Part shown: piece after piece, positions 350 through 56,334 of the stretch | Layout: every line of letters starts with the position of its first letter | Position numbering within the stretch: the first letter of the stretch is position 1 | Source: Bryum argenteum | Taxonomy: Eukaryota > Streptophyta > Bryopsida > Bryales > Bryaceae | DNA: 64,000 bases | NCBI GenBank assembly: GCA_037043015.1 | Contig: CM073323.1 | Span: 1,116,001 to 1,180,000 of the forward strand | Direction of reading: 5' to 3' | The notes under the pieces: model-generated | What the model was told of the DNA's origin: nothing | Seen by the model: the letters and a program-made list of their open reading frames with translations, nothing else | The model's database searches: none | Translations under genes and position numbers: made by a program

Positions 350-620
350 CTTCTTCCCCATTTTCCATTTTTTTGTTACTCGTTCCCTATCACCAAAGCC
401 CTAGTCCCGATTCCATCTTTTGTTCCTAGTTCATCGTCCCACAACTCTCCTTCTTGGTTTTCATCATTCGTTCCCGGTTCACATCAATTTCTTTCTAATT
501 CCCATCATTTGTTCCTTGTTCTCATTTTTTGTTCTTGGTTCCCATCCTTCGTTCCCGCTTTCTATTGTCTGTTCCCAGTTCCTAGTTTCCCTCCAATGTT
601 CCCCTGATCTCCTGTTCACG
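350..620. repeat. Degenerate minisatellite of the GTTCCCATC-TTTGTTCC type
   Basis: Short, poorly kept repeats of a motif near GTTCCCATCATTTGTTCC run through this stretch. The same motif returns at 2690-2840 on this strand, and inverted at 9880-9965 and 10250-10530. It belongs to a larger dispersed repeat that surrounds the transposon at 2980-9455. The open frame across it has only low-complexity Phe/Leu/Ser content, and I do not regard it as a gene. Confidence 0.7.
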
Positions 621-639
621 CTGCCTTTGCTCCCATTTT

Positions 640-865
640 TATGTTCCATACTCGTTGTCCCTTCGACTCTTTCTTATATTAGAGGGATCTAGTAAAATCT
701 TAATAACAATCAGATACCAATACGGAAACTCTTCAAAATCTTCCAACTCTTCATGGCGTGTATACATGACTAAATGACGATGGCCATGACCATAACCATG
801 CATGTGTGGATCGCCAAAGATAGACATACAAATCGTATTCATTTATATATAGAGATTATTAGTTG
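640..865 (+). repeat. Uninterrupted copy of the dispersed repeat
   Basis: This copy reads through a segment that is cut in two elsewhere. Its left part matches 2870-2971. Its right part (GGATCGCC followed by CATTTATAT and TAGAG) matches 9464-9515. It therefore serves as an unoccupied paralogous site for the DNA transposon at 2980-9455. The central portion also matches 9720-9850 in inverse orientation. Confidence 0.7.
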
Positions 866-2971: not shown

Positions 2972-2979
2972 GATCCTAC
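2972..2979. repeat. Left target-site duplication (GATCCTAC) of the DNA transposon
   Basis: GATCCTAC here and GACCCTAC at 9456-9463 differ at one of 8 positions. They flank the element at its CGGGGGGGCAC termini. The inner five bases, CCTAC, are identical on both sides, so a 5-bp duplication cannot be excluded. Joining the flanks gives the layout of the related uninterrupted copy at 640-865. Confidence 0.7.
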
Positions 2980-3572
2980 CCCGGGGGGGCACAGTGCGTC
3001 AACTTAGAAAGTACTTGAGTTCAAAGATATGGGGGTTTTAATTCTTTCGAGGTAAAATTTATATTTTTTTTTATTGTAAGATAACATGAATTAATTGGAA
3101 GTTTACATCTTAGAAGAAAATAATGGTAGCGTAAAATACCTCCACTTTGTTTTTTTTTAGAAATAATATATGGCAGGCAAAAAAATTAAGAAAATGAAAA
3201 TATTAATGGATCAACGTTGATGATCTTGAGATCCTGTGATGGATGAAAAGAGTGAAGAATCTGTCCAAAACTCTTGGATGAGATCCAGATGGCGGGGGTA
3301 TTGATGATTGGGGTTTACTGTTGAGCTTCTTCATTTTCTCGAATCTTTCCTCTTCTTTCCCGCTGTTTAGATTTTGGAGCTCGGTTAGGGTTTGCTTCGA
3401 AGTCTGTAGAGTAATTTTTGGAACTCTCTGCGTTGCGGCAGTGCTTGTGCGCGTGTTGCCAGGGTGGAGAGACACAGTTGTGGTTGCAATTTAGCGATTC
3501 ATTGAGTGTGATTGCGAGCTTTGGGTCGGTTGCGGTGTTGGGTTTCACGATTAAAGAAGACATTGTTGGTAA

Positions 3573-3870
3573 GTTTTTGCGACCAAAGGGTTTCATTGTT
3601 GCTGGTGCTTTTAGTTCATTGTTGTGCGTGTGCGTGGTTTGGCTGCACATGCGTGATTCTCAGTTTTTGCGACCAAAGGGTTTCATTGTTGCTGGTGCTT
3701 TTGTTCATTGTTGTGGGTGTGCGTGGTTTGGCTGTGTGTGATTTTGAGTTTTTGCGACCAAAGGATTTCATTGTTGCTGGTGCTGTTGTTCATTGTTGTG
3801 TGTGTGCGTGGTTTGGCTGTGCATGATTCTTAGTTTTTGCGACCAAAGGGTTTCATTGTTGGGTATAGTC
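3573..3870 (+). repeat. Subterminal minisatellite, unit 85-90 bp, four copies
   Basis: Units begin GTTTTTGCGACCAAAGGG at 3573, 3663, 3748 and 3833 (spacings 90, 85, 85). Each contains CATTGTTGCTGGTGCT and then GTTCATTGTTGTG followed by GTGCGTGGTTTGGCTG. A partial unit recurs at 4185-4220. The array lies between the left terminus and the transposase reading frames. It could be a transposase-binding or promoter array; that role is inferred from position only. Confidence 0.9.
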
Positions 3871-4346
3871 TTTGCTCATTGGATGTGTAGGAAGTCATTG
3901 ATCAATTCTCACAGCACGTTTCCTTTCGCGAGGTTCCTGCAAAACTAGAGAGGTAAGTTTGCTATTTAAATGGAATCCATTTACACAATCAAGCGACGGT
4001 ACAGTAGAATACTCTATCTGTAAGATAGTTCACAATCATGCATGTTGAATGAGAGGATATAGCGATTGGACTAATACCTTTACAGTCCGATCACTTCCAA
4101 GTGTGCATGAACTCTTTTATGCCAGACCCCATATTCTCCCTGAAAAAGCCTTCCTCGATCACGGTCCACAAGCAATGCCTACTAGTGCTTTTGTTCATTG
4201 TTGTGCGTGTGCGTGGTTTCTCAATGGTGTTTCTCAATGTTGGGTTCTGAGTTGAATTGAGTTTCGGGTTGAATTGGGTTTCTAAATGTACAAGCTTGTG
4301 TTCGTGTGTTAGGGTTGAAGAGTTCCTCTTTGGTTTATTGTTTCGC

Positions 4347-7300
4347 ATGGCGTTAAGGATCAAGATTTACGCTCTTGACTACGAAGACGCGGGACCAAGG
4401 TTTATTGGGCCTGTTCGGGCTGACGATGGTGCGTCTTACAGCAGTCTTCGGGAGAGGTTGGAGTCCGTGGGGATTCTGCCGTGGAAGTTCCAATTCTGGG
4501 ATATTGAAGACAGTTGCCGTATCAACGTGAAGTTGGAGAGTTTGAACAGTATTGCAGCAGTTGTTCATGTTATCCCACCAAGGTGAAGGCGGTGCGGGTT
4601 TCAAGCGCCAACGCATCGACAATGACGACATTGAGAGTGTAGGGGCCGCCTTGAGCAGTGTGGAGTTGGAGGGGATGACCAACCAGGTCGAGGGATTTGT
4701 TGGCGTTATTTCGCATCGACATCTAGGGTTCTTGGATCGAGTGCGAGAGAGGCACCGCCCGTTGTGCGGAGATTTGGTTGCAATCCACCTTAATTTCTCA
4801 TGGAGATAATGGACAAGTACATCTTGGAGGAGGAGAACCCGAGATGGAAGTTGAAGGGAATTTCACCGGGAAGACCACGATTGGAAGCTAAAATCTTTTG
4901 ATCACAATGGCGTGGGGGTCGTGAAGATCTACTGCCTCGAATGTAACAAGCATCACGGAGGAATTAGTGGGGATCACACAAGTCATGCTATCCAGAATCT
5001 CTTCAACAATTTCAAGGGCAGCCATCTAGGGAGCACGGCACATGATAGGAATTGGTGCAAGAGACACAATGTTCCATTCGAACACCATCCTCGATCAGAA
5101 GCGGGTAGACTTGGAAAAGGAGTGATTATGACTCTTGAAGATCATGCGAAGCTGATAGCAGATGGCGTCGAGATAGTGAAGAAAGTGAATGCTTCGAAGG
5201 GGATGGATCAGCCCTGTTTCGAAGTGGTGAAGAATCCGTTAGCGACTCAGGTGAAGTGTTTTTGGACGAAGGTGAAGTGCGTAAGCTGCAACCAGTTCTT
5301 GCAATTGTGTCCGCCGAAGAGAAATCTTGAACATACGTTGACTGCCCATGCTGCCGGTTCGAAGCACAAGGAGCTGCTTGAGAAAGCCCAAAGAAAGACA
5401 CTAGGAGTGCCACTGTCCGCAGGAAGCGAGGGAGACCGAGTCGCACTGCTGGATTTTCAGAGAGCCGGAGTCAAACCAGTCTACATTCCTGGTTCCCTCA
5501 CAGCGGTGAAGGATCTCAGGTAGGTGACTTTACTTCATGGGATAGAGGGGCTGGGCTTAGATACATTTGCTGGGGATTTAGAGGTCCATCGTGTTCGTAT
5601 GGAGGTAAGCCCTACAATATCCGTGCACTTATCAATGACACTCACCCAGGAAAGAATTGGTTTGCTGAACCTTGTGTGCGTGGTGATGTAATGCTGGAAG
5701 GGGGTTTGTTGAGTATTGAGGGTACTTTTAGGCATAGAAATTGTTTGCGGATCTCTGCTTCTGATGATGGATTTGAGAATCTAACATGTACGAAGTGCGC
5801 GTCTATTCCCTCAGAGGATGACTTTAGGATGCGGGTACTTCGTGAGGATCGAGCAGTTGAGAAGAGGGGCACGAGATCGACAGGGTCATGTCGCCGAGTA
5901 GGGTACCTTCACCTGCTAGAGGTGAATTCGCATAGTCGTCAGTTGTTGAAGAAATTCAGGAGAGAGAGGTCGCTGCATTGGGCAGCAAAGGCTCGGATAG
6001 TGCAGCTTAAAGTAAAAAGGCCGACGTTGAAAGAGTCGGCAAAATTAGCATCTGATGAACACGATCTAATGAAATTTTGCAGTAACATTCTTGCTCCTCA
6101 CCGGTCTGGGGTCTTCGGAGGTAAGCCAGCGTTATGGGACTTCATGAAGGACTCTGCAGCAAATCTTAATCGAAAGAATTCTGCTCACCGATTTAGTGAT
6201 AACAGTAAGGCTTTTGCACACGCCATGAAGATGTACGGAGGGAAACGAATGTGTGACTTATTTGCGCTGAATTATGTTGGACTTGGATACAGCACAGTGA
6301 AACGAGATTGTAGAAAAGGGGTTCAGTTTGTCCCCGGTGAGCACTCTCAGATTTTTAAGGCCGTTGCTCAGATTTATGCGGATGCGAAGAGAGTCCACGG
6401 GATTACAGGGCCAGTCCATGTGATTCTAGCGGAAGATGAAACAAAAGTGAAATCCAGAGTCACGTATGAGCAGAAGTGGGACTCTTTGGCCGGATTCTGC
6501 GGGCCCAAGGAGAATCATGTGTGTGTTTCTGACTATAAGCTACTTGTCGGATCTGGAGACGAAGGCTATAGCCGAGTAGTCGAAGGGTTCGGTTCTAACA
6601 AAGTTGGCGGTTTTGCCAGGGTGGTAGTGGTTAATCCTCTACACAACAAATTGCCCCGTCTAGTCCTCGTCGTTTCGTGTACGTGCAATTGTTTCAATGC
6701 AGCGTGGGTGCGGGCCCAGTGGTCTACAATTGAGCGGCTATGGGAGAAAGATTGCAAAGGGGAAGTTGGCCCCATCGTTGGACATGCAAGCGACGGAGAC
6801 AGTCGCAAGCGGCAGTTGATGTTGGCAGATTACAAGGAGACCGGGGGAGCGAGACTGAAACTGGACTGGGAGGGATGGCTATTCTCTGCTGGCGTCGACA
6901 ATAATGGAGATGCATTTGGTCTGCATGACCAGGATTACATCCACAACGGCAAAAAACTCATAAACCCGATTGATCAAGGAGGGCGAACACTGATGCTTGG
7001 TGGTGATGTTTGTATCTTTGGAGCATGTCGGAGCGATTTACAATAAGTTTACTCAAGATGAGCATGGGTCATGACAAGGTGACATTGACCGCACCGATCG
7101 CCAGAACTGGGCGTCTGCTCAAAGACTTTGCCAGAAAAAAGTGACGAACTGTTTGGCGAAGGTGCGGCTGGCACGTGATGTGCAATGAGAGCGGACTATT
7201 GGTACAGAGTACTACCTCTCTGTTGTGGGAGATTACATAGATATTTTTGCATCCCCGTCATTGGATCTCCGTTCTAGATTAGTATTAGCATCGAAAGTCT

Positions 7301-8811
7301 CTTTCTTCTTTAGATTATGGAAGTTGTGGTTTAAATACGGAGATCATTCAGTACTTGGCAATACAACTTCTTTCTCTGTGAAGGAGAACTTCATTAGTCA
7401 GCAGTCATTTATTGATGTGCAATTGTCCTGTAATTTTGTAGTGTTACTAATCTGTCATTTTCGTGATAAATACTCTCACCTCCTCAAGCCGCATCATCTT
7501 ACAGCAGCGATTCATTCGAGATCTTTTTCAGTAAGATAGGGGGAATGGTTGGCTTAGAACGTGCGTATGATTTTCACGAGCTTGTAAATACAGCTAATAC
7601 AGTAAATAGATTAGCAGCGGTTGAGTATGGGGCAAATGGTCTGAAATTTAATAGGGTCCATAACAAAATGACGAACGTCTGGGCTGATTTGCATCCGTTG
7701 GCACCAGAGGAGTCTCCATGCGACTTGGGGAACTATTCCCTCATTTCTACTAATGATGATGTCATTGCAAAGACCGAAAAAGAAGGGTTGAAAGAGGCTC
7801 AACGTCTTCTCGGGGCTCTCAATATGGGTCCTCGTCCCGGTGCAAATGCTCAAAGTTCAAGGTGGTTCAAGATCCTTGGACTGTGTGAGTTAAGCGACCA
7901 AGCACTTTGCTTTTGTGCCGAACAAGAAACCAGTTGAAGGTGAGGATGGCGACTCGGAGGTAATGCGTGAGATAACAACCCTGCCCGACCGTGAAGAAGT
8001 GGAATCTGATGAGGAAGGCGATAAGGAAATAGCGCCGGAGAATGATCAAGACGATGAGCAAGACGGATTGCCCTGCATCGCTGAGCGGAGACCCGAGATG
8101 TGATCACTGAGCTCCTAAACGAGTCTGAGGAGCAGATCAGAACACCTGCAGTGAGTGTGAAGATACTGCCCTATGTCATGTACGCTTGCAAAACCATCTA
8201 CAAATCCACTTTAGTATCTCAGTTGAATGCGAACCCATTCCTTTCGAAGGACCGATTGACACGAGTGAAGAATTCAATATTTTTCAACAACGCTGACGAC
8301 TACCTAAGTGCCGCCTCATCGAATTCGAAGATGCTGATAGGGTGTGGTAGCGACTGTGGCATCTACTTCTTAGGTGCAGGATTACCACAACGTTCCTCCA
8401 CTGTGACCACTGCTCAAAAACGAACCAGGGGAAAACAGTCGCGAGGTGTTGCAGTAGTCAGAGTATCCCAAGCGGTGGAGGAGGGATCCTGGTGGATAGG
8501 CCGGGTGCAAAGGATCAGAAGACGCAAAGGACGAGGTTATGGTATTCTCAAACATCCAATTGACTTGATGAATCTGCTATCGTCAACCGGGAAGAAAGGA
8601 GAGCTTGGTCCGGCATCCGGTTTACTTGAACTATTATTCGAGGGGCCCAGGTCGGCTCAAATTCAGGTATGATGTCAGTGACTCTAATTGGGTGGACGTT
8701 GAATCCATTATATCAAGTGTAGTGTTAACGTATAATTCTGCTACGAAAATGTACAGCCTGTATTCTGAAGATGCAAGTTCTTTTGATACCTTTGTTTCCA
8801 ACAAAAACTGA
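4347..8811 (+). pseudogene. Decayed transposase of the 2980-9455 element (DDE/RNase H-like, possibly P/THAP9-like)
   Basis: Reading frames follow one another on one strand with frame changes and stops. 4347-4586 is an N-terminal domain (IKIYALDYEDAG...). 4855-5523 has Cys/His-rich zinc-finger-like segments (CLECNKHHGG; CVSCNQFLQLC with following His residues). About 5470-7046 is the core, which is open upstream of position 5676. 7100-7200, 7225-7539 and 7545-7937 continue the core, and 8100-8811 is a C-terminal domain. Candidate catalytic acids lie in VILAEDETKVKSRVTYEQKW, GHASDGDSRKRQ and LHDQDYIHNGKKLIN. This order of a first acid in a strand, an SDG segment, then an HLLKN-like stretch resembles P/THAP9 transposases, and FFSKIGG near 7530 resembles their C-terminal motif. 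Sequence conservation across the frame breaks points to simple indel decay. Some breaks have GT donors and might be introns (for example 5519, CAG|GTAGGT). Confidence 0.65.
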
Positions 8812-8895
8812 TTGACTCTTAAGGATTAGAGCTCCGGGGATAGTTCTAACTTGTCCTTTTGGAGGACAAGTTTTGCGTAGGAGTTGTTAGGAGAA

Positions 8896-9040
8896 GATTC
8901 ATGAGGAACAATTTCTCTTGGTGTGACCTTTCAGAACATTGCATTTGTAAATGCCACTATAAACTGTAGCGGATTCATGAGGAACAATTTCTCTTGGTGT
9001 GACCTTTCAGAACATTGCATTTGTAAATGCCACTATAAAC
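8896..9040 (+). repeat. Two near-identical 69-bp direct repeats
   Basis: Positions 8896-8964 and 8972-9040 are identical as far as I can read. They start GATTCATGAGGAACAATT, end GCCACTATAAAC, and are separated by seven bases. They lie between the end of the transposase frames and the right terminus of the transposon. The near identity contrasts with the decayed transposase, so the duplication is recent. Confidence 0.9.
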
Positions 9041-9455
9041 CTTTAACGTGCAATGCATTTTGAATTTCAGAGGTTCCAAGAGAACCCTTGTTTGGGAAGT
9101 AATTAAGGCCAATTAAAGGTCTTTACTTCCAATTTGCCTTTCTTTGCCATTGTGTATGTTTTTTGTGAATGATTTCATCCATACGAATGAATGATAAATT
9201 TACGTGTGTTAACAAAGATCTTTATCTTCTACTGGTATGGTTGTTTTTCTAAGATTCATATAAGTAATATATGGTGCAAAAAATAAGTCAGCCTCAGTTT
9301 TTACAAGTAAGATATGGTCTGAAATATGCTCTTCAAACCGTTTTTTTTCTAAGTTAATGGTCTGATAAATTCAAAATTAGGTGCTAAGTAACTCCCCATA
9401 AAATACCCTCTGAACGCAGGTGGTACCTAACTTACACATGTAGTGCCCCCCCGAA

Positions 9456-9463
9456 GACCCTAC
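9456..9463. repeat. Right target-site duplication (GACCCTAC) of the DNA transposon
   Basis: It pairs with GATCCTAC at 2972-2979. It is followed at once by ATGTATGGATCGCC, the continuation of the interrupted repeat also seen at 803-816. Confidence 0.7.
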
Positions 9464-9719: not shown

Positions 9720-10540
9720 TCTATACATACATGGTCATGACCATTATCATTTAGTCATGTATACATTGCGTGAAGAGTTTCAAACATTTTAAAGTGTTTT
9801 GGTTAGTGATATTTGATTGTTATCAAGAGCTTAATATATATCAATAATACAACAAGAAGTTGAAGGGACACGGAATGTGGAACATGAAAATGGGAGTGGA
9901 GAAGGAGTGAACCGGAAAAGGAGGGAACATGGGAGAGGAACTTAAAAGGTTGGAACGAAGGATCACTAGTAGAAAATGGCACTAAAAATGACAAACGTCA
10001 TGCCTTGACCGTAATGACACAAAGTGTAAGTTTTAATTGTGCTTCTAATAACATCAATATAAATTATGATATTTGTCACTTTTTCTTAGATTTGTTTTGG
10101 TTGTGATAAGCATACCACACTCTAATAGATTAGTAAAGAAAGTAAGAAAAAGTGACAAATGTAATAAATCATTGTGATGTCATCAGAAGCACAATAAAAA
10201 AATGCACTTACGGCCGTCACTTCTAGTGCCATTTTTTACTAATGGATGGAAACCGAGAATATAGGATGAGAGCCAGGAACGAATGATGTCAAACTAAGAA
10301 AGGGAGTTGGAGGATGGGGAAACGGGAACAAAGGATGGGAACGAGGAACGAAGTACAAAAACTAGGAAGGGGAGTTGGGGGGCGGGAAACCGAAAAAATA
10401 TAGAAAAATAAAAATGCAACCACACAGGAAATATGGAACCAATAAGGGGAGTTAGGGGACTAGGAATTGGGAACAAAAGATGGGAATGAGGAACGAACCC
10501 GAATAGATGATCCATTTAGAAGACAAACTAAACACTTCTT
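9720..10540 (-). repeat. Inverted copy of the dispersed repeat, split by a CACTA element
   Basis: Read on the minus strand this segment carries the same string of GTTCCCATC-type motifs, then TAATAACAATCAAATA, CTCTTCA and ATGTATACATGAC, as 350-830 and 2690-2970. Together with those plus-strand copies it brackets the DNA transposon with inverted repeats. The 281-bp CACTA miniature element at 9964-10244 sits inside it. Confidence 0.7.
9964..10244. mobile_element. CACTA (EnSpm/CMC) miniature element, 281 bp
   Basis: The left end is CACTAGTAGAAAATGGCACT. The right end, read inverted, is CATTAGTAAAAAATGGCACT, so the termini are long and imperfectly inverted. Similarity extends more than 100 bases inward on each side, including a shared TTGTCACTTTTTCTTA block. 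A three-base duplication, GAT, flanks the element (9961-9963 and 10245-10247), as expected for the CACTA superfamily. There is no coding capacity, so it is non-autonomous. One terminus has C-A-T-T-A in place of C-A-C-T-A. Confidence 0.92.
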
Positions 10541-17129: not shown

Positions 17130-17255
17130 TACTTACCCATAAGTGCTAATTGCATTCCATAGAATGTTAACACATAAAGGCCCGAGGGGTTTGAAGAAAA
17201 ACTTAGATGTGTTATAAAATATGAATTCCATAACTTTTATGATGTAGCACTCCAA

Positions 17256-19870
17256 TGTATGGGATCGATGGTCTGTTGCTACCAGACGGCTCGTCAGTAC
17301 GCACACAATGCTTTGCGGACGACACAGCACTCTTCCTCAAGGGCAACAGAGAAAACCTTCAACGCGCATTTGACACCATCGACCTCTTCTGCAAAGCCTC
17401 GGGCGCAAAACTGAACTGGGATAAATCGTACGCAGTGTGGGCTTCAGAGAAAGAGCGTGACTGGGGATGGGGTGACCATCTCGGCATCAAATGGTTGAAG
17501 GACGGGGAATCTACTCGCTACCTAGGTTTTCCTTTCGGTCGAGGCCTCTCCACCAAAGATATCGATGCCAAGGTGATGTTACAGACTCGCTCGAAGCTCA
17601 ACATCTGGGCCAGAAGGAGCCTCTCCCTAGCAGCCCGAGTTTTGGTCTCGAACCAGGTAATTCTCGCCAGCATTTGGTACTTCGCTTCTTGTAGCGCGGT
17701 GACGGCGAATGTTCTGTTACGAATTCGAACCCTGGTTCGCAATTTCATGTGGGGCGGTTGCCCTGACCGCCGCGCTAGAGCCAGAGTGGCCTGGGATACA
17801 GCGATAGTACCCGTGCTGAGAGGCGGACTGAAGATCTTCGATCCAGTCATTCAAACCAGAGCCCTTTTAGCAAAGATGATTCATCGTGCCCTTTCTCCAG
17901 GTGGCGAACCATGGAAAGCGCTAGTTCGGCACCGTATCTCCCAGTTAGCTCTAAGACGTGACGGTGACTGGGGGAAATCCGCAGCTTGGCTCCTCTCATC
18001 GCCAAAAGTCACTCCACAAGGTTCCCAGCTGTGGAACGCTATGTGGGTTGCGTGGCAGGCTGTTCGACCGGGGGCGTGCAAGCAAACTCCAACCTCGCAG
18101 GCGGAATGCCTCAGACAACCCCTTTACTTGAACCCGCTCATCAAGGTCTCCGGCTCCCCGATAGGTGTGAAACGGAACTCAAAATTTAGAAACTGATCCC
18201 TCAAAGGTATCCAGTTCGTGAAGGATGTTTGGTGCAGCGAACGTAGAAGCTTCATCCCAGACAAGGAGATGCACCGCATCACCCGCTCCCACCATATTGG
18301 AAGGCTAACAGACTCGGTACGCGAAGCCTGCAATCAAGCCTTCGACCTGAACATTTCAACTCCCTTCGCCGCAGGCACGTGGCTCGCGTCGGATTCATCT
18401 GATCTTGAGCAGCAAGTTTTTTATCTACTTAAGGAGTGTTCCGCCGATTCTTGGCTGGGTTGGGAATTTTCCCGCCAGAAAAGCTCAGACAGATTGATAC
18501 TCACCGCAGGACTACCTGTCCCCATTCTGGCTAGACCTCTCTTTGAAGCTAGGACACTGCTGAAGTCCAAGAAAGGAGTGGTAACAGGCTTTAACCCATC
18601 TCAGGTCGACACTACCTCAAGCATCTGGACGTGCAGCACAGGAAAGATTATTGACTTGAGTATCGATCCCAAAGAGTGGAGATGGCGTCGGCATGGAAGA
18701 ATCCCAGCAGGACACTTCTTCGAATATTCGACGAAGAGAGGCTACCGGATTATCCTGGAAGCTCAGTGGAAACACATGCGGTTTGAAAAACTTCTCACCA
18801 GTAGAGGTTATTCTATTTCGCAGCGTTCAAAGTTTTACAAACGACTATGGCATCATTGGACGCCAAGAAAAATCACGTGCATGGTTTGGTTGGCGCTTGC
18901 GGGAGGTTTACCAGTGGGCGAGTGGAGAACCCGTACAGGTCTTCCAGGTGAGTGCACAGTCTGTGCGGGTGGAAGCCTACAAACAACGGAGCACGCTCTC
19001 TTTTCATGCCCGGAGGTCCACCCAGCGTGGGTGAGAATGAGGTATCTTCGGCGAATCGCAGGTATGCCCCCCAGCCTTCGTGACTGGGAATCCGTATTAT
19101 TTGGAGACTTAGGCCCTCCCCACCAACTCGATCTGGAAGAGGAGGAAGCTCCGTGGGACGAATATGCTAAAGTAACGATCGATGAGGAAACACCGTGGCA
19201 CGTCCTGCGCTCGGCGTTACTCTGGACAATCTGGGGGCAACATTGCGAACACGATCTCAATTCAGGCGTGTTTCACCTTGGAGTAGCCATGTTCAAGGCA
19301 TGGAAAACCACCATACAGGTGGGAATGGGAGCTTGGAACGAACTTCAACGTTATAGCGCCAAACGGAAGGCAGACAGACACGCGGCGATGGAAGTCCGTT
19401 TTCTGGATATCTGGGCTAAGGGCGAGATCTTCTGTAGCGACAAGAATGGTTATCCTGCCTGGAACCCAGCCCCTCATTACCAATTCTTACCACAAGAGTC
19501 CAGCCGACACTTGTCATCAATCCGGATAGATAGGAACACGAACCAGGGTGCTTGTGACAATCAGCAAGCCCCAGCCCACTCTGAGTCAGAGCTTGGGGAA
19601 TCGGGAGCTTCGGCCCCACCCACTCCGAGGACATGGGCGTGTAATCCCACCCCATTGGACTCGCGACCAGCAGAGATTCTCCCTGCCATTGAAGCAGCCC
19701 CTAGGGCTTCTCGTCGACACGAAGAAGCTGAGGAGTTGGCAGCTCGCATCCTACAGCAGATCATCGCGGACATCACACGCGACGCCGCCGCGGACGTCGC
19801 CTGCGACCTTCCCTCCGACCTCCAGTCACCGAGTGACCTGGCAGATCAGGCCCGTTTCTGGGTCCAGTAA
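17256..19870 (+). pseudogene. LINE ORF2 remnant: reverse transcriptase C-terminus and zf-RVT domain
   Basis: One reading frame runs from the left boundary to 19870, broken only by a TGA at 18194-18196. Before the break is the RT palm motif CFADDTALFL (catalytic FADD) and thumb-type sequence (KLNWDKSYAVW, STRYLGFPFG, LAARVLVSNQVILASIWYF). After it come a zf-RVT-like region (RLWHHWTPRKITCMVWLAL, CTVCAGGSLQTTEHALFSCP) and an Ala/Ser/Pro-rich tail. The sequence on both sides of the stop is continuous in frame (KFRN, stop, SLKGIQFVKDVW). The break is therefore a single nonsense change, with Trp a likely ancestral codon. Few other lesions suggest a fairly young insertion. Confidence 0.9.
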
Positions 19871-20645: not shown

Positions 20646-23116
20646 ATGGGGAAGAAACAGCATAGCAAGGATCGTATGTTCATAACAAGCACGGAATGGA
20701 AAACTGAATGGGGAGGAGCTAAGTCGCGCGATTTCAAGACGCCTTTCAAACGCTTGCCCTATTACTGCTGTGCACTTACTTTTACGCCCTTTGAAGATCC
20801 TGTTTGCACCAAAGAGGGCCACGTCTTTGACATTTTGTAAGTCGCTCTATAATTCGTGCATTATACCCCTGGTCACGTTTATCGTCTTCTCCCTGCAGAC
20901 TCCGAATCGGAGTAACTATGCTTTTGGAGCAATTCTCAAGGTTTAGGGTTTAGGTTCTACTGATAAATATGATATGCTTGTTCCTGTAGCTGATTGCGTT
21001 TTCTTGACGCTATTGCAGGAATATTGTCCCTTACGTTACAAAATTTAAGAAGAACCCGGTAACTGGCAAGCCTATGGCAGTTAAAGACCTCATCAAAATC
21101 CAGTTTCACAAGAATGCAGATGGCGAGTACCAGTGCCCCGTGCTTCACAAAGTGTTCACAGAGTTTACACATATCGTGGCTGTGAAGAAGACGGGGAATG
21201 TATTTTCGTATGAAGCCATTCGAGAATTAAACATCAAGTCAAAGAACTGGAAGGAGTTACTTACAGACGAACCTTTCACAAGAGACGATATCATCACTAT
21301 TCAGGTCAGCACTCTTATACTCGATGCATACTCTGCGGTATGTCCTACGTTGCAACCACAATTCCGATCTTATTTGCGGTTGTTGTACGTCGAATTTAAA
21401 TTAACACTGTTTTTATGTGATGTTCCGGCAGGACCCTAACAATCTGGATGCGAAGGTGCTGTCTGATTTTGACCACGTTAAGAAAGAGGTAGATCTTGAC
21501 TCAGACGAGCTGAAAGCGCTGAAAGATGATCCTGCTTACGGTATTAATATGACTGGCGATACAAAACGCATACTGAATGAGCTAGGCACTGAGAAAGGTC
21601 GAGAAATTGCAGCCGCTGGTGGCGGTGGTGACAGGACTCAGCGTGAGCATGCAGCGGCTGTTGCCGCCTTGAAAAGAGCAAAAAAGGTACAGTTATTTGT
21701 TTCGGTGCCTTTGCTTCCCTTCTAGCGTGTTGTTCAGATGCTTGATATCATTTTAAATCGCTAGTTTGATATCGATTATATTTCAGACGACTACCTTCGA
21801 TATTCACCCCGGGCTGTTGTCTTGGTGAAACATCAGAGAGCACAAGACCATCCAGAGGAAGAGAAGAAAGAAGCACCCAAACCAGTAGCATTAAGTGTGG
21901 TAGATATTGCTTCAGCAGCAATCAACGGGCGCTCTGCTTCTGCTGCCTTGGCAGGCTCCGCAGAAAAAACCGCCGCCCATGTGGCAGCTCATACAGCGGG
22001 TTCACTTGCTCCTGTCAATTCCAGATTGGTATGATCTCTTTCTCTGCAAGTGGTTTCTTGTATGACTTGTTATGGTTCCACGTTTGTAGCATCTTACGGG
22101 TGCTTTCCTTGCGGATGCTTTCCTGGCTCTTCAGACTTCCCTTGCTAATAAGTCAGGGACAAAGCATCTTCTGAAAGTAGGGTGCTCAGGAAGACTATTT
22201 GTGTCATCCACCATTTCTGAATAAACTTTCGATTGTGTAGGTCAAGAGCAAGTACACTTCGGGCGCCGCATCCCGCTCCTTCACGTCAACTTCTTATGAT
22301 CCTGTCACCCAGAATGAGTTTGAGTACGTGCAAGCTGAGCGAAACCCGAAGAAGAAGGGATATGTGCGGATGCACACTTCTCATGGCGACTTGAATATTG
22401 AGCTTCACTGCGATATTACACCACGGACTTGTGAGAATTTTCTGACGCTATGTGAACGAGGCTATTATGACAACGTGGTGTTTCACCGAAGCATCAAGAA
22501 CTTCATGATTCAAGGGGGTGATCCCACGGGTACAGGGAGAGGAGGAGAGTCCATATGGGGCAAGCCATTCAAGGATGAGTTGAACTCGAAGGTAGTGCAC
22601 AGTGAGAGGGGTGTGCTAAGCATGGCCAATAGTGGTCCTCACTCGAATGGCTCCCAGTTTTTCTTCTTGTACAAGTCAGCGAATCATCTAAATTACAAGC
22701 ATACTGTATTTGGTCGAATAGTTGGAGGGTTAGAGGTGCTATCGGCCATGGAGAAAGTTCCTGTTGATGACGATGACCGACCCTTGGAGGAAATTAAAAT
22801 ATTGCGAGTATCAGTGTTCGTGAACCCATACGCGGAGATGGAAGAAGAAGAGAAGAAAGCTGCTGCTGAGGCTGCTGCCAAGCCTGCTGACGCCGAGGAG
22901 GAGGCTGAAAAACTTGGCACCTGGTATAGTAACCCAAGTGCAGGATTGGCGCCTCAAGCGTATGGTACTGGTGTTGGAAAGTACTTGAAAAGTGTTGTGC
23001 CGGGAGTCGTTCGGAAAGAGATCGACGTAGCTGAAGCAGAAGAGGATGTCCCTACCAAACGGAAGAAAGTTGAGAATACAAATGGTGTACAGTTTAAAGA
23101 TTTTTCAAGCTGGTAG
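20646..23116 (+). CDS. PUB49: U-box peptidyl-prolyl isomerase, PUB49/CYP65 (PPIL2-type)
   Basis: Five exons: 20646-20836, 21019-21304, 21432-21686, 21837-22028, 22241-23116, giving 599 residues. Residues about 35-110 form a U-box (YYCCALTFTPFEDPVC, then VTKFKKNPVTGKP). A helical, charged linker follows, including SVVDIASAAINGRSASAALAG, and then the VKSKYTSGAASRSFTSTSYDP segment typical of this family. Residues about 349-505 are a cyclophilin domain (VVFHRSIKNFMIQGGDPTGT, SMANSGPHSNGSQFF, LNYKHTVFG). The Trp that binds cyclosporin in CypA is Tyr here, as in PPIL2 relatives. The acidic/Ala-rich tail ends KDFSSW. Relatives are nuclear, spliceosome-associated proteins with E3 ligase potential. 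Exon 4 was started at CATCAG|AGAGCA because the upstream AG would put a stop in frame. Confidence 0.95.
20940..20954 (-). promoter_or_regulatory. Telobox in intron 1 of the PUB49-type gene
   Basis: GGTTTAGGGTTTAGG contains two copies of the plant telomere-type motif (AAACCCTAA on the minus strand). Such boxes near plant transcription starts bind Myb/TRB factors. The placement in the first intron is compatible with a regulatory role, but this is inference. Confidence 0.5.
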
Positions 23117-42800: not shown

Positions 42801-45800
42801 TACGTGCTCTTATCGTTACTCCTACCAGGGAACTTGCGTTGCAGGTGCGGGCTCACCAAGCGAATAGAAGATACTCTGCCGAAATGCTGCTGTCTTTAAT
42901 TTTTGAACATTTTAATGATTATGTCTTCGGCTTTGTAACTTGACAATGAGTACTCCTAAGATCACCTATTTTTGAACATTGTGTTGTATATTTTGTTGCA
43001 GGTGTGTGATCACATTAGGGCAGTTGCTCAGTTCACAAATGCGAATGTGGTGCCCATAGTTGGGGGAATGGCTCTTCAAAAGCAGCAACGACTACTTGGA
43101 TACCAGCCACAGATTGTGGTTGGTACACCTGGACGTTTATGGGAGCTTATGAATGCCGGTGAAAAACATCTGCTTGATGTAAGTTTCTAAAACTCGAAAT
43201 TTTTACAATGTTGAAGAGTAGGGGGGAATTGTTTGTCCTTTGCTAGCATATGCTTATTATAAACTCATAACTTGCTTAGTTAAGCTCTAGAGAAAGTTTG
43301 AGATGATTTGTTTGCTTTGCGAAACGAACATGTGCTCAATGCGCTGCAGATTAGAGGGATGCGGAACTCGATACTTTCTTAGCCTTCGTCACTCGGTTGA
43401 TGACTTCTGATTCTGTGCAATGCAGCTGTCTCAACTTTCATTCTTCGTCCTGGATGAGGCTGATCGTATGGTCGAAAAAGGCCACTTCAGAGAGCTACAG
43501 ATGATTATGGATTTGCTGCCAAAGTCACAAAATGAACTCGCGGCGGAAGCTGAAAAGGCTCAGGGGCGTAAAAGGAGGAGAGAAAACAACCGAGAAAGTA
43601 AAGGTGAAGACGAGCAAGGGGACGACGATGAGCAGGAAGAGGAGAATGTTGAGGTTTATCCCGACTCCGATGACGATGAGCAAGAAGAGGAGAATGTTGA
43701 AGTTTACCCCGACTCTGATGATGAGGATGATCTTGAAAATGGTGATGAAGAGCAAGAAGAAGATGTGGAAGATGATGATGATGATGATGACCTCGAAGGG
43801 CAAGAGGTAGTTGATGGTGAGGTAGGAGACGAAGGGCAAGAAGGAGATGACGAGGACGGAGCTGAAGAGGACATAGGAGATGGTTTCTTTCCAGCTTTCC
43901 CAGATGAGGAGGAATCCGATGCAGATCAGCAGATAGAAGCAGAAGACATATCCATGGATGCAGTCTTCCCAGGCCGTGTTAACGTCGAACCATTGAAAAA
44001 ACGGCAAACTCTTGTGTTTTCAGCTACATTAGCGCTGCCTCCGGGCTTCAAGAAGAAGCTGAAGCGAGGGTTTTTTGAAGATAAAAGCTTGTCGAAGAAG
44101 AATGAATACTCTGTAGCCTCTCTAATTCAGAAGGCGGCCATGAGAAGCAACGCAGCGATTGTCGACCTCACCACTAAAGACATCCTTGCTAAGAAGCTTG
44201 AAGAATCCGTGATAGAGTAAGACCTTTACACCTTTCGATACGTGGAGGTTCTGAAGTCCATATATCATTTTTGTTGATGATGGTGTTATTCCTGTGCAGA
44301 TGTCGTGATGAAGAAAAGGACGCATATCTCTATTACATATTGAAGGTTCATGGTTGTGGGCGAACATTAGTCTTTTGCACATCAATTGCAGCTCTCCGGA
44401 GGGTTACAGCGATCCTTAAACTCTTGCAAGTCAATTGTCGGCCGTTGCATGCCCAAATGCAACAGAAGCAGCGGCTAAAGGTGGCAGTCTTCTCTTTTTT
44501 CACTCCTGTTCGGGATCGGGAGCCTCAGTAAGAGCAATTCACGTTTCATGGTTTACCTCAGTATGTAAACCATGAAATTAAATGGCTGTGCATTATTCCT
44601 AGTAATTCAGTTTTTATATTATGGTTCACGGTTTGGTGAGGAAGAACTACTTCTGATGAGAAGTTCGGTGTGCACAATCAGGCAATGGACCGTTTCAAAG
44701 GTGGTGAAGATTGCGTGATGGTGGCAACAGATGTGGCTGCTCGAGGTCTAGATGTAACTGGTATTCGAACTGTGATTCATTATCAACTGCCTCATTCTGC
44801 TGAGGTAATACGGTCTCTGCATGTCCCTATTAAGTATTTACAAGAGCAATGACATCTCGAAACCTTTTTTTCCATCAAATCGACAAAACTACCAATGGTA
44901 GCTCTAGTGTTGATCTAGTAGGACATAAGATCAGCATCAGGATGTTATTAATCGAATGCCAAGTAAATGGTGCTCGAGTATTTATGTACAGATTACTTCT
45001 GTTGGTTAATGTGAATTAGTATCAACTGATATCCTTTTTCTTTGTAGATGTATGTTCACAGAAGTGGGAGAACTGCACGTGCAGATACTGATGGTATTAG
45101 CATTGCCATTATTTCCCCATCAGATCGAGCGAAGTATACAACTCTCTGTCGCGCCCTTGATAAGGTAATTGTTTGCTGTTCTGGTTCTCCATCCTGTGTT
45201 GCCTGTTTGATGCAGATTTTTTAGATCTGAGGTTACTTGATTACTATTATGCTGTATTCTTTGCTTAGTCTAGATGTTGGATGATCCTCAACTCAACCGA
45301 AAACCTTGAGTTGGCTACTAATTTTGCGTGATTTGATTGCAGGCGAATGGATTGCCGTCTTTTCCAATTGACCCGACCTATGTACCAGCAATTTTGAAGC
45401 GTATCAGTTTAGCGAATCAAGTTGATAGAGTCTTGCGGAAACACCAGCAGGTAAACTAGTTAGTTCCTGGGTTTGATGATGTTATATCATGGTAGCTTGG
45501 TGTACAATGATCATGTCCAGACCTTGCTCAATCATTGAGGGAGCTGTTCTCATGCGCTCTGTGGAACTGGTGTTCAAACATGTGCGGTGCTAAACATGAC
45601 AGAACAAAGTAAAGCAGTCTTGGAAGAAGCGAAATGCTGAGGCTCTAGAGCTAGATCTTGAAGACAGTGATGATGATCTTGAAGAGGATTCAGTGAAGAT
45701 GCCTGTGGAAAAGCGGGAACTCATGAGAGTTCAGAATCTACAACAGGTAAACAGACTTCTTAGAGGCTCCAGTCCAATATCATATCACATCATCTCATAT

Positions 45801-53672: not shown

Positions 53673-56334
53673 TTAGAAAGAAAAGCATGTAAAATCAAGG
53701 TGTTTCTCCCATTCCTCTATACGAAGCTCAATCTCCAATCCCGTGCTCTGTTTACGATGCTCAACAACTCCTTCAATTCTTGAGGACATGAGTTCCTTCG
53801 TCATGGGACTGCTTTTGTGGATAAATACAATCAAGCTGGTTACTGACTCTCGTACAAGCATTCGCAATACACTTATGGCTGCTTCCATATCATGAGGGAT
53901 CATGTGAACAATCAACTCCTTCATTATTGGCCATCTTATTTCTCTTTGAACATTCCCAACTTGGGTTTCCATGCTATACCATAGCCCCGGGCCTATATTA
54001 AGGACTTCTAACTTCTCACATTCATGTAGAGTGCTAAAACTTGGAAGAAGCAATGTTGTATCCTTCAACACTCCCAAGAATCTCCCATCCTCTGCCAAAG
54101 CCATGCAGGGAATGTCTACAAACACCTTCTGCAAGCTTCTCATATTCTTTTCTACGAGAGATGTGAGAGTTATAAAACTCGTCGCGCCATATAGAAGTTC
54201 TCTCAACCCTGTCATTGTAAACATTTCCACACTAGAGTCGTCCATGACGTCCATGTTGAAGGCAACGTATTTCAAATTGTGTGCCCTGATGATCAACTTC
54301 CTTGGACATTGCATCTTCAACTGTAACTTCACCAACTCAGGACACTCCAATATAACATCGGCTGCAGGAGTAGATAATCCCAAGCATAGCACCGTCAAGT
54401 GTTTGAATTCGAGATTTCCTCCTTTGGCACCAAATACCCCAAGTAATGCTAATGTTTGTAGATTTGGCATCGCGGAATTCAAGTCTTTTAGTGTCCCACT
54501 TATAACTTTGACACACCTCAATGTCAAATTCTCCATTTTCTCCATTACAGCACAGTCACTTGTATCGATAAATAAATTCCTTAGATCCAAAGTCTTCAAA
54601 TTCGGACCTACGTACACAATCCAAAGTATATAGTTAGCAATACAATCTTCGCCATTTTCACTTGAAATGCAATTATTGACAAAGATTCCCACATATATTA
54701 TCAACTTGAACTTCAGATGTGAACACTACACAACTCATCATATTAAAAACACTATGAATGAGTATTGAGATCTATCCCACAAACATAAAGACGTAATACA
54801 AAAAAAACCTTCTTTGATAAGTTCATCTCTACATGTTTGACCACCATGTCATCTCATACAAATTCAACTTCATCATGTTTGTGTAACCACCATGTCATCT
54901 CATACAAATTCAACTTTGTCATGCGTGTGTAACTAAATGTTCCACTATCGAAACAACTGTCAAGCATGACAGCATTACATGGAGTAAGGATCTCCTCAAC
55001 CATACTAGCAAACAACAATGCACATCACCTAAGCAGAAGTGAAAGTAGTACCACAGACTAAGGTTCTCCTTAACCATACTAGCAAACAACAATGCACATT
55101 ACCTAAGTTCAAGTGAAAGTGGTACCATGGACTAAGGTTCTCCTCAACTATACTAGCAAACAACAATGCACATAACCTAAGTTCAAGTGAAAGTAGTACC
55201 ATGGACTAAGGTTCTCCTCAACCATGCTAGCAAACAACAATGCACATTACTTCAATTCAAGTTACAGCTTTACCTTGAAGTAAGGTTCTTCTCAACCATA
55301 CTAGCAAACAACACTACACATTACTTGAAATGAAGAGAAAGTATTACCATGGACTACGGTTCTAATCTATGGACATGGCACAACTGTGATTATAAGTGTG
55401 ATGAATGTTACGTTTATCTCCTATACACATGTACCATCGCAAATCTTCACCTTTTCTATCCTCAGGAATGCACGCGAAAGAGAAAGAAGGGTAAATTGTT
55501 CATGTACTTTTTCGTTTAAAATATTGTAAAAGGATATATTTTTTCTTTTATTTTTATTTATTTTAGTTTATTTTACTCTATTATTTTAATTTTAAAATAC
55601 TAAAAGACTTCCTCTTATTAGACTGCCTTGTAAGAATGGAATCCACATGCACATCAATTGCAATCGTGGTTGGTTATACCATCACTCAGCAATCTTCTTG
55701 TTGTATGCACGTATTGCATACTACCATGCTGAAGTGTATTTTCATGGCCTGTTAGATCCTCGAGCAATGCGAATAAAATATGTGGTAAGGTCCAAGGAAA
55801 GCACTCACAATTTTCTGATAAGAGCTTGACAATCTTGGATCTCCGCATGATGGCTTGTTGCCCGTAATCGACGATACACAGATGAAGTAAAGTACGTCCA
55901 ACAAATGGAAGCCACTTGCTTAAGTGATTACTATCAGTTATCCAGAAATCTGTTCTTCGTCTCTCCGGCTCTTGAACCGACTTCGACTGCAGCGCTGCGT
56001 CTACCTCGATACGAAGTTGCACAAGATTGAGCTTTCGTTTGATGATACCCACAAGCACGTCTTTCAAAGATAGAGGCTCATTCAGGGTTCTTGTCGGCCA
56101 TCCTACATAATCTTTGAAAGGCTTCCCATCGTAGCTTGGATCGTTTCTTGCTCTTTCGTGGATATCGTTCGAGATCGTGAAACGCAACGATTTAACGTTA
56201 TAACCTGCTGTTCTCCAATCCTTGCACACACACATCAGTCTGGCAACATCACTTGCATCCTCCAGGTTGTTGAAGATTTCGAACAGAATGTATAGCGGTA
56301 ACGACTGCACACAGCCGGGAAAATCCATTAGCAC
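53673..56334 (-). CDS. F-box protein with leucine-rich C-terminal region
   Basis: Two exons: 55809-56334 and 53673-54607, joined by a 1.2 kb intron; 486 residues. The join was chosen because AAAATT|GTGAGT and GTACGTAG|GTCCG keep frame and give SENCPNLKTLDLRNL, a normal leucine-rich repeat. Residues about 11-42 are an F-box (SLPLYILFEIFNNLEDASDV, then MCVCKDW). The rest holds irregular leucine-rich repeats (NLTLRCVKV, NLQTLALLGV, HLTVLCLGL, ELVKLQLKM, LEVLNIGPG). F-box proteins bind Skp1 and deliver substrates to SCF ubiquitin ligases; the substrate here is unknown. The start may be Met at 56334 or the second Met two codons on. The intron carries a 74-bp tandem repeat. Confidence 0.85.
54960..55350 (-). 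repeat. 74-bp tandem repeat, about five units, inside the F-box gene intron
   Basis: TCTCCT(C/T)AACCATACTAGC begins units at 54991, 55065, 55139, 55213 and, diverged, 55288. The period is 74-75 bases. Each continues AAACAACAATGCACAT, then AAGTGAAAGTAGTACCA. It lies wholly within the intron 54608-55808. Confidence 0.92.

Follow-up and report, generated by a model that had tools for sequence, protein, structure and literature searches.

A decayed DNA transposon and its relatives in the land plant Bryum argenteum, with a predicted P element-like transposase

A stretch of 64,000 nucleotides of the Bryum argenteum genome (assembly GCA_037043015.1, contig CM073323.1, forward strand positions 1,116,001 to 1,180,000; hereafter, the window) contains a DNA transposon which we interpret, with a probability of about 0.6, as a decayed, once autonomous cut-and-paste element of the P element/THAP9 fold group in a land plant. 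The copy in the window is dead and has better-preserved relatives in the same genome; judged from structural models, their enzyme looks most like that of the fruit-fly P element. The element has paired inverted ends, target site duplications, dispersed copies and a paralogous repeat free of the insert, and its relatives contain long open frames with conserved acidic residues.

Results

Boundaries, ends and target site of the element

The element spans window positions 2980–9455 (6476 bp), exactly where a preliminary description, made from the sequence alone, had placed a 6.5-kb transposon with inverted C/G-run ends. It starts with CCCGGGGGGGCAC and terminates with GTGCCCCCCCGAA. The inverted CGGGGGGGCAC ends are real and recur genome-wide; in most copies of the window family the left terminus is CCCGGGG.. 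and the right one CTCGGGG... The 8-mers flanking the window copy differ by one mismatch. The following non-coding features were mapped (window positions).

478..854, + strand: paralogous repeat without the element, a probable unoccupied site, from flank similarity
2972..2979, no strand: left target site duplication GATCCTAC, 7/8 identity with the right copy
2980..2992, + strand: left terminal inverted repeat CCCGGGGGGGCAC; 10 such ends genome-wide with up to 3 mismatches
3572..3861, + strand: array of 3.4 tandem 85-bp repeats in the 5′ leader; other copies match it in repeat register
8896..9040, + strand: 76-bp subterminal tandem duplication, 1.9 copies
9443..9455, − strand: right terminal inverted repeat, reverse complement TTCGGGGGGGCAC; 9 such end regions genome-wide
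9456..9463, no strand: right target site duplication GACCCTAC, 7/8 identity with the left copy

Matches of the 76-bp duplication to other copies are shifted in register, which suggests that its copy number there differs.

The repeat at 478–854 is 78% identical to the left flank of the element (478–735) and then 80% identical to the right flank (801–854). Between the matched pieces there are 33 bases in the joined flanks versus 65 in the repeat. At the level of sequence comparison the repeat supports an insertion event, with a junction that is not fixed to the base.

Copies and relatives in the genome

The genome searched comprised 258.8 Mb in 25 contigs. It gave 57 GRAS family matches, whereas none of 14 control genomes gave any, in keeping with a land plant, of which GRAS is a marker. 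At least 44 matches were obtained in a DNA search with the element: pieces of approximately 10 copies at 88–100% identity, short 5′-repeat pieces on C4 and distant relatives at 63–68%. With up to 3 mismatches allowed, the window family has 10 left ends and 9 right ends, which belong to nine elements with both ends and one place, C1:9899310, with a left end only. Apart from this solo end, the end-pattern searches located no short derivatives with internal deletions. The window copy, L009, L011, L012 and L013 are 96.2–97.5% identical to each other and 91.2–92.0% identical to L016; copies with internal insertions (L010, L014/L015 and L017) were left out of this comparison.

The survey of target site duplications covered 18 insertions for which both termini could be read, nine in the window family and as many in relatives; L018 (left end only) and L028 (without paired ends by the pattern used) were left out. 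Duplications of 8 bp were perfect at 14 insertions and matched at 7 or more of 8 positions at 16, which bears out the duplication length proposed in the preliminary description. As a control, the remaining 8-mer pairs from these 30-bp flanks were compared, and 10 of 9504 attained 7/8. No duplication was present at L009 (0/8) and L013 (3/8). Paired CYCGGGG... ends and perfect 8-bp duplications are present in nine of the ten relatives inspected; paired ends were not found at L028 with the end pattern used. All five transposase groups with ends read (the window family, L019, L020–L025, L026 and L027) have CYCGGGG...CAC termini in common.

A protein search with the 1402-aa open frame of L019 returned at least 42 matches at at least 33 places in the genome; 33 of 141 first-look candidates were scored, so these counts are a lower bound.

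Transposase coding region

The window gene is broken by six frame changes and two stops over the part comparable with P0001, the protein whose residue numbers are used throughout. Since the frames of relatives are open over 1402 and 1413 aa, the long multi-frame transposase noticed earlier is one broken protein. The longer of these frames, in L029, is 1413 aa in the piece examined and 1502 aa in the genome protein search. The 1402-aa frame of L019 (stop to stop) is enclosed by 15-bp ends and by target site duplications, all of them perfect. The following coding pieces were recognized in the window.

4347..4586, + strand: conserved N-terminal coding piece from an ATG, resembling an L019 piece by eye; no Pfam match
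4855..5523, + strand: piece of the transposase with a pair of zinc-finger-like CxxC...HX5H motifs, seen by eye; 46% to P0001 86–275; no Pfam match above cut-off
5382..7046, + strand: piece with putative catalytic first Asp (6435–6437), second Asp (6792–6794) and DxxH (6933–6944); 61% to P0001 268–804
7189..7539, + strand: helical insertion between β5 and α4; 65% to P0001 863–969, helical in models
7470..7937, + strand: piece with the putative third catalytic residue, Glu (7518–7520); 65% to P0001 969–1086
8085..8672, + strand: C-terminal domain piece of the transposase; 49% to P0001 1161–1349
8572..8811, + strand: last C-terminal piece in another frame, an ORF matching P0001 1340–1401 by tblastn

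In L019 the similar N-terminal piece starts at 2364, upstream of the 1402-aa frame and in a different frame. The offset could stem from an intron or a frameshift, and for this reason we do not call L019 intact.

A single frame is kept on both sides of the insertion in L017 (tblastn). Of 75 frame-breaking indels counted across eight copies 67 were private to one copy, but the count is noisy (L017 scored 14 although its frame is open on either side of the insert) and was not relied on. Because of this noise, decay of the copies after insertion is, from the sequences, likely and no more than that.

Conserved core and transposase groups

The alignment of the conserved core, A2, contains 28 rows, fewer than the 41 pieces in the candidate list. 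Its sequences fall into at least nine groups, with identities of 44–73% between groups and at least 80% within them: L019; L027/L029; the window family; L028; L033/L034/L036/L038; L026/L031/L032/L035; L030; L020–L025; and L037. Putative catalytic residues are conserved in all rows that cover them (D612, 18/18; D731, 23/23; D778 and H781, 23/23), and E973 is present in 19 of 20 covering rows, L012 being the exception. We infer catalytic roles for the conserved acidic residues from this alignment.

The core has the layout D-D-DxxH-E with a helical insertion. The DxxH-to-E spacing is 195; by the residue numbers in the available text of PMC8230255 it is 192 in the P transposase of the fly and 199 in human THAP9. 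The first-to-second Asp spacing is 119 versus 73 in the fly, and the second Asp is 47 residues from DxxH versus 36.

Predicted fold

Two AlphaFold2 models were obtained, one of 831 residues (mean pLDDT 52.6) and one of 681 residues (mean pLDDT 59.5). In the latter D612 follows strand 607–610, D731 follows strand 725–729, DxxH (778–781) comes after strand 762–765 and is succeeded by helices, and E973 is on helix 970–979, within a stretch with pLDDT below 50 in both models. The order of strands, motifs and insertion in the model matches the P superfamily plan as laid out in the available part of PMC8230255.

In Foldseek searches of the PDB the fly P element transposase (6p5a) ranked first for both low-confidence models with probability 1.00. 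The E values were 0.010–0.013 for the 831-residue model and 0.003 for the 681-residue model, with TM-scores of 0.26–0.46 and rmsd of 18–19 Å. The next different proteins were RAG1 (probability 0.13, 831-residue model) and histidine ammonia-lyase (0.08, 681-residue model). A second P entry, 6pe2, ranked second for the 831-residue model and was absent among the best 50 matches listed for the 681-residue model. No hAT transposase was among the best 50 PDB matches listed for either model, and no match to a viral structure library exceeded probability 0.10 among the best 50 listed. With E values, TM-scores and rmsd as weak as these, the P fold match is a specific lead toward kinship with P, not proof of it.

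Profile, sequence and literature searches

Scans with Pfam, PHROGs (four window pieces) and NCBIfam (two relatives) revealed no family above cut-off, and P0001 had no listed Pfam match at E up to 10. The P-type RNase H profile PF21787, the one P transposase profile among the listed matches, gave E 0.11 in 2 of 24 members and 0.07 in 1 of 28, both below cut-off; genome-wide it had no match, and its positive control was silent too. PDB sequence and profile searches returned no P element and no transposase; their matches, at E 0.12 or worse, were judged chance. A THAP domain was not found in P0001 or in the window pieces, including N-terminal piece 4251–4583; according to the accessible text of PMC7776569, THAP domains have not been found in plants.

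The best scan score, Thioredoxin_4 (E 0.0069, L030 alone), was below its own cut-off and judged chance; Ish1, SPOC, DUF5610, BofA, DUF3881, DUF7892 and PF1197-like_C scored weaker still.

Profiles of hAT, MULE, CACTA, Harbinger and KDZ gave no match for the proteins scanned. In particular, neither the hAT dimerisation domain PF05699, nor a BED domain, nor the MULE domain PF10551 was detected in window pieces or relatives scanned. Elsewhere in the genome the same profiles do work: PF05699 had at least 150 matches (150 of 476 candidates scored) and PF10551 had 52, none of either inside the family loci by eye. The nearest PF10551 match was approximately 3.8 kb from a partial relative, C1:35307922, whose ends were not read. 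The view that the element fits no common plant family was thus upheld, with no clear best match to hAT or MULE.

No relative was confirmed in IMG/VR and GTDB contigs, where one search had no pattern hit and two others had 29 and 85; at that sensitivity, an origin from a virus or a prokaryote is unsupported. Among the papers listed in literature searches, no title or abstract start described such elements in land plants; an entry in Repbase, Dfam or nr may already exist. In the available parts of PMC9033089 the land plant elements are Tc1-Mariner, hAT, Sola, MULE, PIF-Harbinger and CACTA, and those of PMC10741241 add Ginger; P is not listed in either.

Discussion

Placement of the lineage

The suggestion of a P/THAP9-like element, made in the preliminary description, was supported by fold rank and catalytic layout, which favor a "P-like" assignment, but not by sequence profiles or a THAP domain. 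For the latter reason we file the element as a P-like variant, not a P element proper. Going by the models, the lineage may be either a deep P branch or a superfamily sister to P. One version of the latter, to which we give slightly less than even odds, is a separate land-plant superfamily, a THAP-less sister of animal P with its own zinc-finger N-terminus and large C-terminal domain, at least nine groups and open frames of approximately 1400 aa.

A rather unlikely alternative is a new superfamily within the hAT/P/MULE/Kolobok/Dada supergroup, with a DxxH-bearing RNase H fold, that is not the specific sister of P, the latter being simply the nearest solved fold. DxxH is common to five superfamilies, as described in the available text of PMC9587614, and the lack of a Pfam family above cut-off and of a detected THAP domain, the distinct termini, the extra zinc-finger-like N-terminus and C-terminal domain and the weak scores for P would all agree with such an origin. 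Against it, P leads widely in probability with both models, no hAT protein is among the best 50 matches listed, and the DxxH-to-E spacing fits P.

It is improbable that the element is a divergent member of KDZ (Kyakuja-Dileera-Zisupton), of Zisupton type, or of another superfamily with no solved structure to win the search. KDZ transposases are large and KDZ elements are present in green algae; the accessible parts of PMC9297572 and PMC8226300 describe Zisupton proteins of up to approximately 1400 aa and green-algal relatives. However, Zisupton genes are multi-exonic (PMC9297572, same parts), whereas here one open frame holds most of the protein. The KDZ domain PF18758 had no match for P0001 (E up to 10) or for A1 and A2 members, and none genome-wide, where the positive control was silent too. 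The two Kyakuja families covered in the available text of PMC12730594 differ in having 7-bp duplications and CA..TG ends that form no inverted repeats.

That the element is a strongly diverged hAT appears more improbable still. The 8-bp duplications are shared with hAT, whose transposases also have the D-D-DxxH-insertion-E layout. Yet hAT termini follow a YARNG pattern which the CYCGGGG ends lack, and neither the hAT domains, in spite of the abundance of PF05699 elsewhere in the genome, nor a hAT structure appeared among the matches listed. Finally, a reading without any transposon, in which an inverted repeat flanks a broken gene by chance, has in its favor only the low complexity of the G-run ends and the one mismatch in the duplication of the window copy; it is refuted by copies elsewhere in the genome that have these ends and differing duplications.

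Proposed transposition and meaning

For the P-like element, we propose that one transposase of approximately 1400 aa would recognize the short inverted CYCGGGG...CAC ends, and probably subterminal sequence too. The element would be excised by a DDE active site within an RNase H fold that the helical insertion domain interrupts, and would then be joined to the target with an 8-bp stagger, as for P elements; repair would therefore leave the 8-bp duplications. Movement would thus be by cut-and-paste rather than copying.

P elements are the animal transposons of the textbooks. In a land plant, a P-like lineage that has diversified and contains long open frames would widen the range of the P fold and be relevant to how P and THAP9 arose. 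Plant annotation would gain an element class that Pfam misses, with its large transposase encoded at at least 33 places without a match above cut-off.

Comparison with known superfamilies

MULE/MuDR elements are common in plants and also encode a DxxH-bearing DDE transposase. They leave duplications of approximately 9 bp, unlike the 8-bp duplications seen here next to ends of approximately 13–15 bp, and their domain was not found.

The fly P transposase has 751 aa, and the fly P element ends with CATGATG. The protein described here is longer, at approximately 1400 aa, and the CYCGGGG ends also differ from CATACC in Pdre2. Further differences from the P superfamily (Drosophila P, zebrafish Pdre2/THAP9) are the longer first-to-second Asp spacing, the missing THAP domain and profile match, and the land plant host. 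The same in both are short inverted ends and 8-bp duplications, which P elements leave according to the available part of PMC7776569. By the low-confidence models, the RNase H plan would likewise be shared: an Asp on or after β1, an Asp after β4, DxxH after β5, a helical insertion between β5 and α4, and a Glu on α4, in a helix modelled here with pLDDT below 50. The element has the D-D-[C/D]xxH-E motifs and the β5/α4 insertion of the P superfamily, a motif set that is common to other DxxH superfamilies as well.

Sequences flanking the element

The decayed P-like transposon at window 2980-9455 is flanked by a 27-nt inverted repeat, 85% complementary, whose arms (2936-2962 and 9754-9780) both lie outside the element, the left one close to it and the right one about 290 bp off. 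The motif on the side of the right arm (about query positions 247-337 of the search) has matches at 39 further genomic sites. Because of this recurrence the element probably lies within or beside another repeat.

Related elements elsewhere in the genome

Six related elements of the same genome (L020-L025), outside the family of close copies to which the window element belongs, share 98.2-98.9% mutual identity. Perfect 8-bp duplications flank all six, and their frames are broken despite these duplications. The group looks like a burst younger than the window family.

The largest among the contigs seen in this genome, C1 (44 Mb), could represent a chromosome rich in repeats or a sex chromosome. 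By eye, an estimated half or more of the 150 hAT dimerization (PF05699) matches listed were on C1.

Other features of the window

The following features were recorded, resemblances of frames being judged by eye:

17243-19870, a pair of neighboring open frames, 317 and 557 aa long, resembling LINE reverse transcriptase
22241-23116, 291-aa frame resembling cyclophilin-type peptidyl-prolyl isomerase
43411-44220, frame resembling a piece of DEAD-box helicase
54978-55363, 74-bp tandem repeat, 5.2 copies

A FADDTALFLKG motif was read by eye in the reverse transcriptase-like frames. The helicase-like frame contains a long acidic stretch with a 48-bp tandem duplication inside it.
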